Source: Nitrosopumilaceae archaeon
GTDB taxonomy: Archaea > Thermoproteota > Nitrososphaeria > Nitrososphaerales > Nitrosopumilaceae
DNA length: 37,854 nucleotides
Direction: 5' to 3'
NCBI GenBank assembly: GCA_022823825.1
Contig: JAJEHG010000037.1
Location: forward strand, 1 to 37,854
The notes under the pieces were generated by a model, which did no database searches, had not been told where the DNA came from, and worked only from the letters and a program-made list of their open reading frames with translations. The position numbers and the translations under genes are program-made. Positions 591 through 36,149 of the stretch are shown piece by piece (positions within the stretch are counted from its first letter, which is position 1; every line of letters starts with the position of its first letter).

Positions 591-1703
591 ATGGGCCGCG
601 TACCACCCCGCATAGCCGGGCACGTTGCAGTCAGGCACGGCGGCCGTCTGGCGTACGGGGGGGCGGGATCCGACGACATGGTCGACTACAGCTCGAGCAT
701 CACGCCGCTTGGGACGCCGCCCGCGGTCTTGCGCGCAGTCAGGAAGGCCGCCCGCACCGTATCGGAGTATCCAGATCCCGGGTCCGGCGCCCTGCTGGGG
801 GCCCTGTCGCGGTATACGGGGCTGCCGCGCCCAAACCTCGTGGTCGGAAGCGGCGCGATCGAGATAATCTATGCCGCCGCGCACGCCTTTGGCGGGGGAA
901 GGGCGCTCGTGTACGCCCCGACCTTTGGCGAGTACGAGGCGGCGGTGCGCATGCACCACGGCGGCTCTGGGATCGTGCGATACGCGGGGAAACGGGACGC
1001 GTGGCTGTCCCGTGACATTGACGGGTTCGTAAGAAGGGTGCCCGACAACGGCATGGTGTTCCTGTGCAACCCGAACAATCCCACCGGGGAGCTGCTGGCA
1101 AGGAGGCAGGTGCGGGAGATACTTGACGCGGCGGCCTCTGCAGGCTCGTGCCACGTGCTGGTCGACGAGTGCTTTATCGAGATGTCCCAAAACCCGCGCG
1201 AATCTGTCATGCCGTACGTGCGGAAGGAGAAGGGGGGGTACGGCAACCTTATCGTGCTGCGCTCCCTGACAAAGTCGTTCGGGCTGCCGGGCATACGCGT
1301 CGGATATGCGGCCGCCCCCCGCGGCGTGGCAGACGTCATACGCAGGACGACGGTGCCGTGGAGCGTCAGCTGCCTGGCCGAGGCGGCCGGCGTGGCGGCC
1401 CTGGCGGACGCGCGCGGCATCCTCGGGAAAACGCGCGACGCGATACGGACAGAGCTGCGGTATCTGCAGGGGAGGCTGTCGCGGATTCCGGGCGTCGAGT
1501 GCCGCGACACGGCCGCGAACTTTGTTTTGGTGAGGACGAGACTGGATGCGCCGCGCCTGCAGGGGCTGCTGGCCAAGAGGGGGATGCTTGTGAGGGACTG
1601 CTCTGACTTTGCCGGCCTTGACGACCGCCATATCAGGATCGCCGTAAGGAGGCGCAGGGAGAACAGGATGATTGCCGACGCGCTGGAGGACGTCATGCGA
1701 TGA
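591..1703 (+). CDS. cobD: Threonine-phosphate decarboxylase / HisC-like class I aminotransferase
   Basis: PLP-dependent fold-type I protein, 370 residues. CobD decarboxylates L-threonine phosphate to (R)-1-amino-2-propanol phosphate, the linker of the cobalamin nucleotide loop. The N-terminal HGG followed by VDYSSSITPLGTPP is the arrangement typical of CobD rather than HisC. CNPNNPTG, a VDECFIEM block and the PLP-lysine motif SLTKSFGLPGIRVGYA (Lys228) are all visible. I chose ATG 591 because the family N-terminus starts just after it and a TATA-like element lies 25 bases upstream; the reading frame stays open to position 6 but overlaps asd antisense. The stop overlaps the next start (ATGA), so it is translationally coupled to cobQ. 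Histidinol-phosphate aminotransferase is the alternative; the B12 context favours CobD. Confidence 0.8.
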   Translation: MGRVPPRIAGHVAVRHGGRLAYGGAGSDDMVDYSSSITPLGTPPAVLRAVRKAARTVSEYPDPGSGALLGALSRYTGLPRPNLVVGSGAIEIIYAAAHAFGGGRALVYAPTFGEYEAAVRMHHGGSGIVRYAGKRDAWLSRDIDGFVRRVPDNGMVFLCNPNNPTGELLARRQVREILDAAASAGSCHVLVDECFIEMSQNPRESVMPYVRKEKGGYGNLIVLRSLTKSFGLPGIRVGYAAAPRGVADVIRRTTVPWSVSCLAEAAGVAALADARGILGKTRDAIRTELRYLQGRLSRIPGVECRDTAANFVLVRTRLDAPRLQGLLAKRGMLVRDCSDFAGLDDRHIRIAVRRRRENRMIADALEDVMR

Positions 1704-2563
1704 AAAACATAATGGTGCAGGGAACCTCGTCGGGCGCGGGCAAGAGCGTGGTTGCGGCCGCGCTGTGCCGCATACTCTCCGACATGGGGTATGCGGTGGC
1801 CCCGTTCAAGTCGCAGAACATGTCCCGGTACTCGTATGCGCTGCCCGGCGGGCGCCTGGAGGTGGCGTCGGCGCAGGCCGTGCAGGCGGCCGCGGCCCGC
1901 TGCGACGTCACGCACGAGATGAACCCCGTGCTTCTCAAGCCCAGGGGGGACGGCACGAGCGCCGTGTACGTCGACGGCAGGATGCACGGCGTGATGGACG
2001 CGCCCTCGTACTATGACGGGTTTGCCCTCGGCGCCGGGCTGGCCGCCGCGTCAAGGGCGCTGCGGTCCCTGATGGAGAGGTTCGAGGTGGTGGTTCTCGA
2101 GGGCGCGGGGTCCCCCGCCGAGGTCAACCTTGCCCGGTACGACATCGCGAACATGAGGATGGCCCATCTGGCAGGCGACGCGCCGGTGCTGATCACGTGC
2201 GACGTGGACAGGGGGGGCGCGTTCGCGTCGCTTGCCGGTACCATGCGCCTGCTCCCGGATGACGACGCCCGGCTGGTCCGCGGGTTCATACTAAACAAGT
2301 TCCGCGGCGACGCGTCCATACTGGAGCCCGGGTACGCCATACTCCGCGACGTGACCGGCGTGCCCGTAGTGGGCACCGTCCCGATGATAGACGGCATGGG
2401 CATACCCGACGAGGACTCGCTTGACAGGCGCCCCGGATCCCGGCGGTGGGACTCGGGGGCGGAGCCGCCCGGGCTCCAGGGGGAGCTGGACAGGCTGGCG
2501 GGCCACGTGAGGGACAACGTGGATATGGACGCGGTAGTTAAGATGATATCTGAGGGGGAGTGA
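1700..2563 (+). CDS. cobQ: Short cobyric acid synthase (CobQ/CbiP) lacking the glutaminase domain
   Basis: CobQ/CbiP amidates four side chains of adenosylcobyrinate a,c-diamide, using ATP and glutamine. The N-terminal ATPase domain is clear: P-loop GTSSGAGKS (8-16), PFKSQNMSRYS, EMNPVLLKPRGDGTS, VVVLEGAGSPAEVNL, TCDVDRGGAFASL, FILNKFRGD and PVVGTVPMIDGMGIPDEDSL. After about residue 235 the class-I glutamine amidotransferase domain of full-length CobQ (about 480 residues) is absent. The protein resumes with LDRLAGHVRDNVDMDAV, which resembles the family's extreme C-terminus, and stops at 287 residues. The next gene starts 20 bases later, so the missing domain is not in another frame nearby. It may use free ammonia or a glutaminase encoded elsewhere (inference). 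ATGA overlap with the upstream gene. Confidence 0.83.
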   Translation: MKNIMVQGTSSGAGKSVVAAALCRILSDMGYAVAPFKSQNMSRYSYALPGGRLEVASAQAVQAAAARCDVTHEMNPVLLKPRGDGTSAVYVDGRMHGVMDAPSYYDGFALGAGLAAASRALRSLMERFEVVVLEGAGSPAEVNLARYDIANMRMAHLAGDAPVLITCDVDRGGAFASLAGTMRLLPDDDARLVRGFILNKFRGDASILEPGYAILRDVTGVPVVGTVPMIDGMGIPDEDSLDRRPGSRRWDSGAEPPGLQGELDRLAGHVRDNVDMDAVVKMISEGE

Positions 2564-3720: not shown

Positions 3721-4533
3721 GTGACTGCCTCGACTACAAGCGCGGCGGGCGGGCTTGCATCCGTCTTTGCGTTTCTGAGTATAATTCCGGTGCGTCAGGG
3801 CGGACATTCCGCCGAGTCGGCCTCACCGCACGCCGGCCTGTACGGCGCCGCAAGAAGCATGCACCTGTTTCCGATTGCGGGCTGCGTAATAGGGCTGGTT
3901 GCGGGCCTGCTTGCGTGGGTACTGCTTGCAGTTGCCGGGCTCGAGCCGCTGCTCGCCGGACTCGTGACTGCGGCCGCGCTGCTCGTCATAACGGGACTGC
4001 ACCACACGGACGGGCTGGCCGACTTTGCAGACGGGCTGATGGCAAGGGGAACGCGCAGCCGAAGGCGGGATGCAATGAGGGACAAGTCTACCGGAACGGC
4101 CGGAACGGCCGCAATAGTGCTGTGCGTGGCGGGCCTGATAATCACTATATCGATGCTTGGCGGCGGCGGCGGGGACGATGGCGGCCTGCGCATAGTGGTC
4201 GGCATCATACTTGCAGAGGTCGCCGCAAAGTTCTCGATGGTTGTAATGGCGTATGTTGGGCGCCCCGCCCCGGGCGGGGGCCTGGGCTCCATCTTCGCCG
4301 AGTCCATGAAGGACGGGCGCAAGATGGCCGCATCGGCGGCCATGACGGTCCCGATACTTGTCGTACTGGGCGGGCTGGTGCCCGGGCTTGCCGTGCTTGC
4401 CGTATGCGTGCTGGCGCCCGCGGCCATGGCGGGACTTGCCGGGCGCAGCTTTGGCGGCGTGACGGGGGACGTGTTTGGGGCCGCAAACGACATAGTCAGG
4501 ATAGCCTCGCTGGCGGTGTTCGTGTCGTTATGA
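3721..4533 (+). CDS. cobS: Adenosylcobinamide-GDP ribazoletransferase (cobalamin synthase)
   Basis: Membrane enzyme that joins adenosylcobinamide-GDP and alpha-ribazole (phosphate) to make adenosylcobalamin (phosphate). 270 residues. The signature blocks are FAFLSIIPV near the N-terminus, LYGAARSMHLFPIAGCVIG, HHTDGLADFADGLMARG (about 94-110) and MRDKSTGTAGTAA (about 119-130), with multiple transmembrane segments. The start is GTG 3721, because an in-frame TGA sits at 3709-3711 and no better start lies between. The stop overlaps the cobY start (ATGA at 4530). The 91 bases before it encode nothing I recognise. Confidence 0.92.
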   Translation: MTASTTSAAGGLASVFAFLSIIPVRQGGHSAESASPHAGLYGAARSMHLFPIAGCVIGLVAGLLAWVLLAVAGLEPLLAGLVTAAALLVITGLHHTDGLADFADGLMARGTRSRRRDAMRDKSTGTAGTAAIVLCVAGLIITISMLGGGGGDDGGLRIVVGIILAEVAAKFSMVVMAYVGRPAPGGGLGSIFAESMKDGRKMAASAAMTVPILVVLGGLVPGLAVLAVCVLAPAAMAGLAGRSFGGVTGDVFGAANDIVRIASLAVFVSL

Positions 4534-5345
4534 TTGGTATGGTGATGGCCGGAGGCAGGGGCAGCCGCATGGCCGCTTCGGCTGCCGCCAATGCCGCCAC
4601 TACCACTACCACCTCCACCACCACCTCCCCCACCCCCACCACCAAAGACGACGAACCTCTACCGGAATCACCGCCGCATGCAGCAGACCGCGCCGCACGG
4701 GGCGAAAAGCTGCTGCTGCCTGTCATCTCGCCTGCCGCGTCCGGCGCAGGGGCGCCAAAACCCGTGGTCTCGCACGTGATGGACGTGCTGCTGGGCTCCG
4801 ACCAGATAGACACCGTGGTCGCGGTGGTGTCCCAGGACAACGCCCCCCTCACAAGAAGGATGTTGTGGGACAAATACCATAACAGCGGCGATGACGGTTC
4901 TGTACGTATAGTGGATTCCGCAGGAGCCGGATACTCTGAGGATCTGGGATCCGCCGTGCGACACGTACTGCAAAGCAAGTATCAAGGAGTACGCGACGGC
5001 GTACTCGTGGTGTCGGGGGACATGCCGCTCTTGGACCGCGGCGTCGTCGCATCCGTGTCCGACCGCTATGCGCGCGGCGCCTGGACCAGCATAGTAACGT
5101 CAAGGGAGTACGCCGGACTGTGGGGGATGAGCCTCGAGTACGAGGTGGTGGTGGACGGTATCGCGTGCTGCTATACCGGCGTCACGCTGGTCGACCCTGC
5201 CGTCATGGGGCCGGACGAGCATGGTGCGGTCCCGCAGCGGCACGTCATAGTGGACGACCACCGCGTCGCGTTCACGCTGAACACCGTGCAGGACTATGAT
5301 CGTCTGGCGCTGCATATGCGGCGGTCGGGCATCGCGATGCCGTGA
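4530..5345 (+). CDS. cobY: Adenosylcobinamide-phosphate guanylyltransferase CobY with a low-complexity insert
   Basis: Archaeal CobY transfers GMP from GTP to adenosylcobinamide phosphate, replacing bacterial CobU. It starts MIGMVMAGGRGSRM, the MobA/CobY nucleotidyltransferase signature. In family members that signature is followed within a few residues by the E/KP block. Here about 44 residues (15-58) rich in Thr, Ser, Ala and Pro intervene before EKLLLPV, with another short Pro/Ala/Gly insert before PKPVVSHVMDVLL. The remaining domain (VVAVVSQDN, DGVLVVSGDMPLLD, WTSIVTSREY, VIVDDHRVAFTLNTVQDYDRLALH) looks intact. 271 residues, longer than the roughly 200 usual. The start overlaps the cobS stop. 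The open frame upstream of 4530 is antisense or shadow sequence of cobS and should not be joined. Assignment is strong from motifs plus context. Confidence 0.88.
   Translation: MIGMVMAGGRGSRMAASAAANAATTTTTSTTTSPTPTTKDDEPLPESPPHAADRAARGEKLLLPVISPAASGAGAPKPVVSHVMDVLLGSDQIDTVVAVVSQDNAPLTRRMLWDKYHNSGDDGSVRIVDSAGAGYSEDLGSAVRHVLQSKYQGVRDGVLVVSGDMPLLDRGVVASVSDRYARGAWTSIVTSREYAGLWGMSLEYEVVVDGIACCYTGVTLVDPAVMGPDEHGAVPQRHVIVDDHRVAFTLNTVQDYDRLALHMRRSGIAMP
4572..4703 (+). repeat. Trinucleotide-rich (ACC/CCA) insert inside cobY
   Basis: Within the insert, 4593-4650 is an imperfect run of ACT, ACC and CCA triplets encoding a Thr/Ser/Pro tract. It sits exactly between the glycine-rich loop and the following EK block of the CobY active site. 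Its length is a multiple of three, so the frame is kept. Slippage expansion is the simplest origin (inference). Confidence 0.75.
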
Positions 5346-29669: not shown

Positions 29670-30158
29670 ATGCTCCGCGACTACATCCGGCTCAACCAGA
29701 GCATGTTTGTTGCAATAGCGGTGGCGCTTCCGGTGTCCGCGGTCGCGGCCGACGCCCTGTCCGGGCTGGAGCCGCACCTCAACGCCACGTACGCCACCAT
29801 AGTGGACTATGCCGCGTATCTGGGCACGTTCGGGCTCATGTTCTACATTACAAACAGGCACAGGTACAGGGCGGGGCCCGGCGGCCGGCCCGCCGAGGCC
29901 GACCCTCGCTCCGACCTCAAGAAGATACTGGCCTCGCTGGGGGCCGGCGAGGTGGCGTACGGGGTCGTCAGGTGGGGCCTGCACTATTACATGATCGACG
30001 CGTGGGGCTACGAGCCGTACGCGTCGTCGGTGACCGCCCAGGCGGCGGCGATTGCGGTGTACTTGGTTGTGATGAACCTGAGCGTGAGGGCCACGAGGAT
30101 GTACGATGGCAGCAGCAGCAGCAGCAGCAGCGGCGGCGGCGGCAAGGGCCAGAAATAA
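29670..30158 (+). CDS. Membrane protein with a Ser-repeat C-terminal tail
   Basis: 162 residues with about four hydrophobic segments (MFVAIAVALPVSAVAADAL; YAAYLGTFGLMFYITN; AGEVAYGVVRWGLHYYMI; VTAQAAAIAVYLVVMNLSV) and a central charged loop. The C-terminal tail is a pure Ser run then Gly run, encoded by (AGC)n and (GGC)n triplet repeats (30108-30145), then KGQK. ACTAAAAG is centred about 27 bases upstream of ATG 29670, overlapping the previous stop. No family recognised. Confidence 0.72.
   Translation: MLRDYIRLNQSMFVAIAVALPVSAVAADALSGLEPHLNATYATIVDYAAYLGTFGLMFYITNRHRYRAGPGGRPAEADPRSDLKKILASLGAGEVAYGVVRWGLHYYMIDAWGYEPYASSVTAQAAAIAVYLVVMNLSVRATRMYDGSSSSSSSGGGGKGQK
30108..30145 (+). repeat. (AGC)n(GGC)n trinucleotide repeat
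   Basis: Seven or eight consecutive AGC units run into four GGC units within the 3' end of a membrane-protein gene, giving Ser then Gly homopolymers. Length changes of whole triplets would leave the frame intact. Confidence 0.85.
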
Positions 30159-35309: not shown

Positions 35310-36149
35310 TTACAATTTGGCGCCGCATTCCTCGCAGAACCTTGAGCCTTCCCTGTTCTCAAATCCGCAACTGCTGCACCTGCCGCTGTTGCCGACATCG
35401 GCTGCCGCTGTTGCCGCCGCGGGGGCGTCGGCCGGGCCGCTTCCGAGCAGTACTATCTCTCCCACCTTTCTGACGCTACTCCACGGTACTGCCTCCTCGT
35501 CCCCGTCGTCCTTTGTTATCACTAGCACCATTGTATTTGCAGAGTCTATGCCAATACGGTTCACAATGCCGATCTTTATCGCATTCTCGTCGTATACCGC
35601 CCTTCCGTTGATGTCGCTAACACTTGACGCATCAGATGGCGTGTCGGCCGGTGGCGACTGCTGCGGCACGGTGGCAGTAGATGGTGCTGCTGCAGGCGGT
35701 GGCGGCGGTGCTGCTGCAGGCGGTGGCGGCGCTGATGCTGTCTCGGCTGCCACCGTCGGCGTTGGCGCTACGCTTGGCTGCTGCTCTTGATGCTGTGGTT
35801 GCTCCGCAGTCCGGTCCGCCTCCTGCTCGTCTTCCTTTCTGAATTCCCTGTACTCTGCGATTGTACTGTTGCACACCTTGCAAGAGTACCTGCCCTTTTC
35901 AACCAGTGTCAGGCCCGGGGCGACCTCCTCGTTTGGGTTCTCGTAGTGTATCTCCGGGGGTCCCTCGTACTCCTTGTCGCACATGTTGCACATGTGCTTT
36001 GACATCCTGTCCGTGTCCATCCTGCAGAGGGGAGCCAGAAACAGGTCGGGGCCTCCTATGCTTGCCTTTGTCTGCTGTTCGTCAGTCAGGGCCGCTACCA
36101 CATAGCCGCCGGATCCCCTGAGCTTTTTGACCCTGAGTTCCGAACTCAT
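35310..36149 (-). CDS. PRC-barrel protein flanked by two zinc-binding modules
   Basis: 279 residues. N-terminal zinc module with two CxxC pairs (C54/C57 in HMCNMCDKEY, C90/C93 in YSCKVCNS); a Glu/Gln then Pro/Ala low-complexity linker (105-170, partly encoded by a 24-bp tandem repeat); a PRC-barrel domain (about 181-236, NGRAVYDENAIKIGIVNRI to VRKVGEIVLL); and a C-terminal zinc ribbon (C258, C261, C272, C275; CSSCGFENREGSRFCEECG). PRC barrels often act in RNA processing or photosynthetic complexes; the role here is unknown. CTTAAATCC is centred 26 bases upstream of the ATG at 36149. Shares its ribbon type with two proteins just downstream. Confidence 0.78.
   Translation of the reverse strand: MSSELRVKKLRGSGGYVVAALTDEQQTKASIGGPDLFLAPLCRMDTDRMSKHMCNMCDKEYEGPPEIHYENPNEEVAPGLTLVEKGRYSCKVCNSTIAEYREFRKEDEQEADRTAEQPQHQEQQPSVAPTPTVAAETASAPPPPAAAPPPPPAAAPSTATVPQQSPPADTPSDASSVSDINGRAVYDENAIKIGIVNRIGIDSANTMVLVITKDDGDEEAVPWSSVRKVGEIVLLGSGPADAPAAATAAADVGNSGRCSSCGFENREGSRFCEECGAKL
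35683..35730. repeat. Two tandem copies of a 24-bp unit in the PRC-barrel gene
   Basis: GGTGCTGCTGCAGGCGGTGG plus CGGC is present twice head to tail (35683-35706 and 35707-35730), encoding the Ala/Pro linker on the minus strand. A recent in-frame duplication. Confidence 0.85.

Follow-up and report, generated by a model that had tools for sequence, protein, structure and literature searches.

Plasmodium proteins carry hydrophilic low-complexity segments within otherwise conserved enzymes, and these segments are thought to loop out. We found a comparable segment in the protein of the cobY gene on a 37,854-nucleotide stretch of DNA from a Nitrosopumilaceae archaeon (contig JAJEHG010000037.1; "the window" means this whole stretch), although in this case the lineage is archaeal, the triplets are G+C-rich (NCC and GGN types) and the inserts are rich in Gly, Ala, Asp and Pro. 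In the solved CobY of M. jannaschii, R13 and K19 are GTP-phosphate ligands and the linker site adjoins the GTP phosphates, according to the available text of PMC4626045. The linker runs from R13 to K19 in that protein (PDB 3rsb, 2mzb), whereas in the window CobY it runs from R13 to K60, and the window protein, which shares about 20% sequence identity with it, has two further enlarged loops.

In the thaumarchaeon Cenarchaeum symbiosum, too, disordered or repetitive segments are unusually frequent in the proteins. The available parts of two papers single it out as disorder-rich for its habitat (PMC2880407) and as an archaeal extreme of compositional order (1665 versus 883 for N. maritimus; PMC3836704), and in those parts the anomaly is not tied to inserts within orthologous enzymes; we do not assume that C. 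symbiosum is close to the window organism. The accessible portion of PMC7848895 describes 7 of 11 thaumarchaea from sponges as having raised G+C, and most as carrying B12 genes. Low-complexity regions in prokaryotes are treated in PMC6821194, whose main text, as far as it is available, contains neither "Cenarchaeum" nor "Thaumarchaeota". Among the matches listed, titles and abstract openings describe no inserts in orthologous enzymes of sponge thaumarchaea or of this lineage, with subscription papers outside the scope of that search.

The elements of cobY are the following.
4530..5345, + strand: cobY, probable GTP:adenosylcobinamide-phosphate guanylyltransferase, 271 residues, open frame, N-terminus MIGMVMAGGRGSRM
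4551..4571, + strand: GGRGSRM, residues 8-14, invariant columns in the alignment; R13 is the counterpart of M. jannaschii R13, a GTP-phosphate ligand (PMC4626045, available text)
4572..4646, + strand: insert, repeat part: residues 15-39, rich in NCC codons, with a Tandem Repeats Finder (TRF) array at 4597-4644
4647..4703, + strand: insert, tail: residues 40-58, which the alignment of relatives shows to be conserved within the clade
4704..4724, + strand: EKLLLPV, residues 59-65, invariant columns in the alignment; K60 is the counterpart of M. jannaschii K19, the other GTP-phosphate ligand (PMC4626045, available text)
4725..4757, + strand: second enlarged loop, residues 66-76, from sequence comparison
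4884..4901, + strand: third variable loop, residues 119-124, 6 residues here and up to 33, Asp-rich, in clade relatives
5013..5027, + strand: SGDMP, residues 162-166, conserved core motif

The original prediction, made from the letters alone, had placed an insert of about 44 residues between GGRGSRM and EKLLLPV, and the interval 4572-4703 is indeed exactly codons 15-58. It had described the whole segment as Thr/Ser/Pro/Ala low complexity of ACC/CCA type; this holds for residues 15-39, to which the low complexity is confined, and fails for residues 40-58, which are ordinary conserved sequence. NCC codons make up 19 of the 44 codons (nine of them ACC), and a run of 12 NCC codons (27-38) was matched by 0 of 5000 codon shuffles. 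The lowest 20-residue entropy of the protein, 1.82 bits at residues 19-38, was matched by 0 of 2000 residue shuffles, and TRF reported an imperfect period-3 array at 4597-4644 with 16 units, 75% matches and a score of 54. The low complexity of the repeat part is therefore not a chance product, and its repeat DNA goes beyond composition. When the structure was predicted, a check that had been proposed with the original prediction, the insert was modeled as an excursion of low confidence next to a core predicted with confidence. The prediction contained neither the two-part make-up of the insert, with repeats followed by a conserved tail, nor the split of two GTP-phosphate ligands, the second variable (Asp-rich) loop or the many similar inserts genome-wide.

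We measured the gap between the R-M and E-K blocks in 72 fetched CobY loci (L002-L073), in which some genomes are represented twice or more and the readable loci amount to 39 distinct strings. The blocks had been expected to lie a few residues apart, and the gap is 4 residues in 65 of the 72 loci, 30 in three, 35 in two and unreadable in two truncated loci; the five long-linker loci represent two genomes, G194 and G197. Of 200 sampled family genomes, 184 match the window protein at E ≤ 0.001; a match at E ≤ 1e-40 is present in only 3 of 95 genomes of the genus, the window genome included. Among the 22 proteins from the database search, the 15 closest (window first) have in-frame inserts of 44, 43, 34, 32, 35, 33, 30, 36, 30, 29, 30, 26, 28, 28 and 28 residues, those of P0008 and P0014 being counted from an internal Met that is their annotated start, and the remaining seven have 23, 18, 18, 5, 14, 4 and 4 residues. 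The frame is maintained across every copy with readable ends. Close relatives differ in how long the repeat part is and in its composition, and in both relatives with DNA (G194 and G197) the variable part consists mostly of GCC and ACC codons. In a core tree of 49 proteins, the 18 with a linker of at least 5 residues and the 31 with 4 residues lie on opposite sides of the midpoint root, with a node support of only 26 after re-rooting, and we base no claim on this split. Overall, the insert is a genuine feature that occurs across the clade and varies in length. The third loop also varies, from 6 to 33 residues across the 15 closest proteins, and is Asp-rich where long; it follows LWDKYHNSG, reaches up to 33 residues in P0004, P0015 and other clade members, and has 6 residues in the window copy and P0003.

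The window protein is probably a CobY-type guanylyltransferase. By its fold it belongs with CobY, and a profile search matched it to PF12804 (MobA-like NTP transferase) with 29.1 bits against a cut-off of 27. The proposal that the remainder of this MobA/CobY-type enzyme is intact agrees with the comparison of 49 sequences, in which the blocks and invariant residues are retained and R13 and K60 are invariant.

To place the CobY insert among other proteins, we compared orthologs from 668 kb of the window genome, including the window (59.6% GC; window, L074-L093 and L174-L193), with those from 1.2 Mb of the complete relative G098 (33.9% GC; L094-L153); controls were L154, L156-L173 and L194-L213. 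In a first pass (337 kb, 245 pairs, overlapping shadow open reading frames (ORFs) included), there were 69 internal inserts of at least 10 residues here versus 8 in G098, five of the eight in one pair. A larger pass of 333 pairs, with CobY left out, gave 104 inserts in 68 proteins versus 12 in 8 for G098. With a stricter filter (identity of at least 40%, flanks aligned, four pairs excluded for coverage, CobY included), 305 pairs yielded 69 inserts in 54 proteins versus 7 in 3 for G098; inserts of at least 30 residues numbered 10 versus 0, and the CobY insert is the 6th of 96 inserts of at least 8 residues. Gly, Ala, Asp and Pro are over-represented in the inserts, and strong repetitiveness is not universal, many inserts of the larger pass having a 20-residue entropy of 2.2-3. 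Across 325 pairs, a low-complexity window is present in 66 proteins here versus 14 in G098 (5.0 and 2.8 in shuffles), and such windows number 617 here versus 10.3 in shuffles. Perfect triplet runs of at least 4 number 45 here versus 8.8 in codon shuffles, and 4 versus 6.9 in G098. Pfam matches gave names to nine of the proteins with inserts: threonyl-tRNA synthetase, STT3, UvrC, UvrA, an antiporter-type proton-pump subunit, UPF0182, thiolase, CTP synthase and an Alba-domain protein.

When the same pipeline, with G098 as reference and CobY left out, was applied to three genomes, inserts of at least 10 residues numbered 68 in 304 pairs for the window genome (22.4 per 100; 7 in G098), 20 in 71 pairs for its relative G197 (28.2 per 100; 0 in G098) and 6 in 139 pairs for the family member G123 (4.3 per 100; 1 in G098). 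G123 has 49.9% GC over 362 kb and a similar divergence (median identity 61.7 vs 63.2%). Perfect triplet runs of at least 5 occur at 52.4 per Mb in the window genome, 24.2 in G197 (4 runs), 0 in G123 and 0.8 in G098. Between the window genome and G197 (67 pairs), 19 of 68 indels lie in a low-complexity context, compared to 1.2% of background windows, a contrast that is biased upward because the context includes the indel itself. High G+C alone is probably insufficient because G123 has few inserts, although G123 is less G+C-rich than the window genome; loci L030, L044 and L048 (51-57% GC) also retain the 4-residue linker, and G+C content is an unlikely sole cause. Searches for NucS in 6 genomes and for MutS in 8 (window genome and free-living relatives) detected neither. 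Because the free-living relatives lack both as well, this absence does not explain the difference in inserts, and loss of known mismatch repair is not supported as the special cause in this clade.

We think it likely that the window encodes a functional CobY with a slippage-grown, disordered loop by the GTP site, as one case of a lineage-wide process. The enzyme would move GMP from GTP onto adenosylcobinamide phosphate, and the four-residue linker between the ligands R13 and K60 would have been expanded to a 44-residue disordered loop. Because the linker of the solved CobY is disordered without ligand and lies beside the triphosphate, the extra residues may loop out without keeping R13 and K60 from closing on GTP. 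In-frame slippage of NCC triplets (ACC, GCC, TCC, CCC) would have lengthened the insert over its first 25 residues and caused the length differences between relatives, the last 19 would be an older, conserved tail, and the lineage-wide process would have placed low-complexity inserts in many ordinary enzymes. Several results weigh against this account. Slippage alone does not explain the tail, which is conserved and non-repetitive; the low predicted local distance difference test (pLDDT) values of the insert are not proof of disorder; and low-GC G098 also exceeds its shuffles (252 low-complexity windows vs 6.9 in the 325 pairs). The NCBIfam CobY models NF045495 and TIGR00454 score far below their cut-offs (37.3 against 250 and 38.3 against 174.7 bits), and since the insert-free relative P0022 misses them too (62.2 and 82.6 bits), we treat the protein as a probable CobY and not as a proven member of the NCBIfam equivalog.

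The conserved tail could instead mean that selection retains the insert for a function of its own, such as covering the GTP site as a lid or serving CobS or a different membrane partner as a docking tail. Its position adjoins the GTP phosphates, residues 40-58 are conserved in the 15 closest proteins, and the ratio of nonsynonymous to synonymous rates (dN/dS) in the tail is 0.17 vs G197 and 0.41 vs G194. However, these two ratios are based on 19 codons, with 7 synonymous changes and 5 others in one comparison and 4 and 5 in the other, the repeat part is variable between close relatives, and the similar inserts in unrelated proteins point to a general process, and we consider a working insert unlikely. 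The repeat part has a dN/dS of 0.22 vs G197 and 0.35 vs G194, on 16 and 11 alignable codons. Synonymous divergence (dS) vs G197 is 0.76 in both insert parts and 0.24 in the body, and vs G194 it is 0.57 and 0.32 in the insert parts and 0.30 in the body, the insert values resting on 10 to 15 synonymous sites each.

A decaying gene whose GTP site is ruined by the insert is very unlikely. The insert does separate two GTP-phosphate ligands at a site where the linker is fixed at 4 residues in 65 of the 72 loci, but the frame is open, the invariant residues are retained, the same insert is carried by 15 proteins at 26-44 residues, and the body (residues 59-271) has a dN/dS of 0.30 vs G197 and 0.22 vs G194. 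A substitute was not found either: CobU was detected in 0 of 4 genomes searched (G000, G197, G194 and G098), where the control was positive in 6 of 14 named genomes and G000 is 89.6% complete. We give almost no credence to an insert that is missing from the mature protein as an intron or intein, or that is an assembly error as the original prediction had allowed: its ends coincide with the borders of the two conserved blocks, but the frame is kept, the tail is conserved at the protein level, the RNA fold is ordinary (z -0.06), inteins are far longer than 44 residues, and relatives from other assemblies have the insert at other lengths, which led us to reject an assembly artefact.

cobY lies in a cobalamin (vitamin B12) gene neighborhood, with the cobS, cbiB/cobD-type and CobQ/CbiA-type genes upstream of it; the start of cobY overlaps the stop of cobS through ATGA (4 bases).
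684..1703, + strand: class I/II aminotransferase, PF00155, 141 bits; putative start, ORF open from base 6
1700..2563, + strand: CobQ/CbiA-type gene, PF01656, 64 bits
2583..3629, + strand: cbiB/cobD-type gene, PF03186, 241 bits
3721..4533, + strand: cobS, the next pathway enzyme, PF02654, 139.4 bits

Individual repeats were also seen elsewhere in the samples. In the window, a PRC-barrel/zinc-ribbon protein (35310-36149, - strand) has inserts rich in Gln/Pro and in Ala, together with a tandem repeat of 24 bases at 35683-35740, and a perfect GCA x7 run (30109-30131, + strand) lies in an ORF (29670-30158) with no Pfam match and an ortholog in G098. One ORF at L088:1242-2393 (- strand) contains AAC x11, CAC x9 and CGC x8, and no perfect triplet runs in the sampled orthologs are longer; the Alba-domain protein at L176:1452-2312 (- strand) has an 89-residue His/Cys/Asp-rich insert with repeats of VHTHGDDHTCADDSCACC. 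Homopolymers of at least 10 occur at 40 and 85 per Mb in the own-genome and G197 samples versus 1.7 per Mb in G098, from slippage or sequencing error.

More tentatively, a G+C-rich, possibly host-associated thaumarchaeal clade may be in a proteome-wide, Plasmodium-like burst of triplet-slippage insertions into housekeeping enzymes, some of which, such as the CobY tail, were later selected. The window organism might itself live in a sponge, which is a guess from its relatives and from G+C. The single gene is a modest curiosity, and the lineage-wide pattern has greater weight for follow-up. If CobY is active, a nucleotidyltransferase can accommodate a long disordered segment between residues that both bind the same phosphate group, where the other family members read have a fixed 4 residues. 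In annotation, inserts of this kind contribute to real enzymes falling short of curated family cut-offs. Low-complexity growth in ordinary archaeal enzymes is measurable across the lineage and may account for published proteome-level anomalies; if C. symbiosum shares this burst regime, its published disorder anomaly would be explained.
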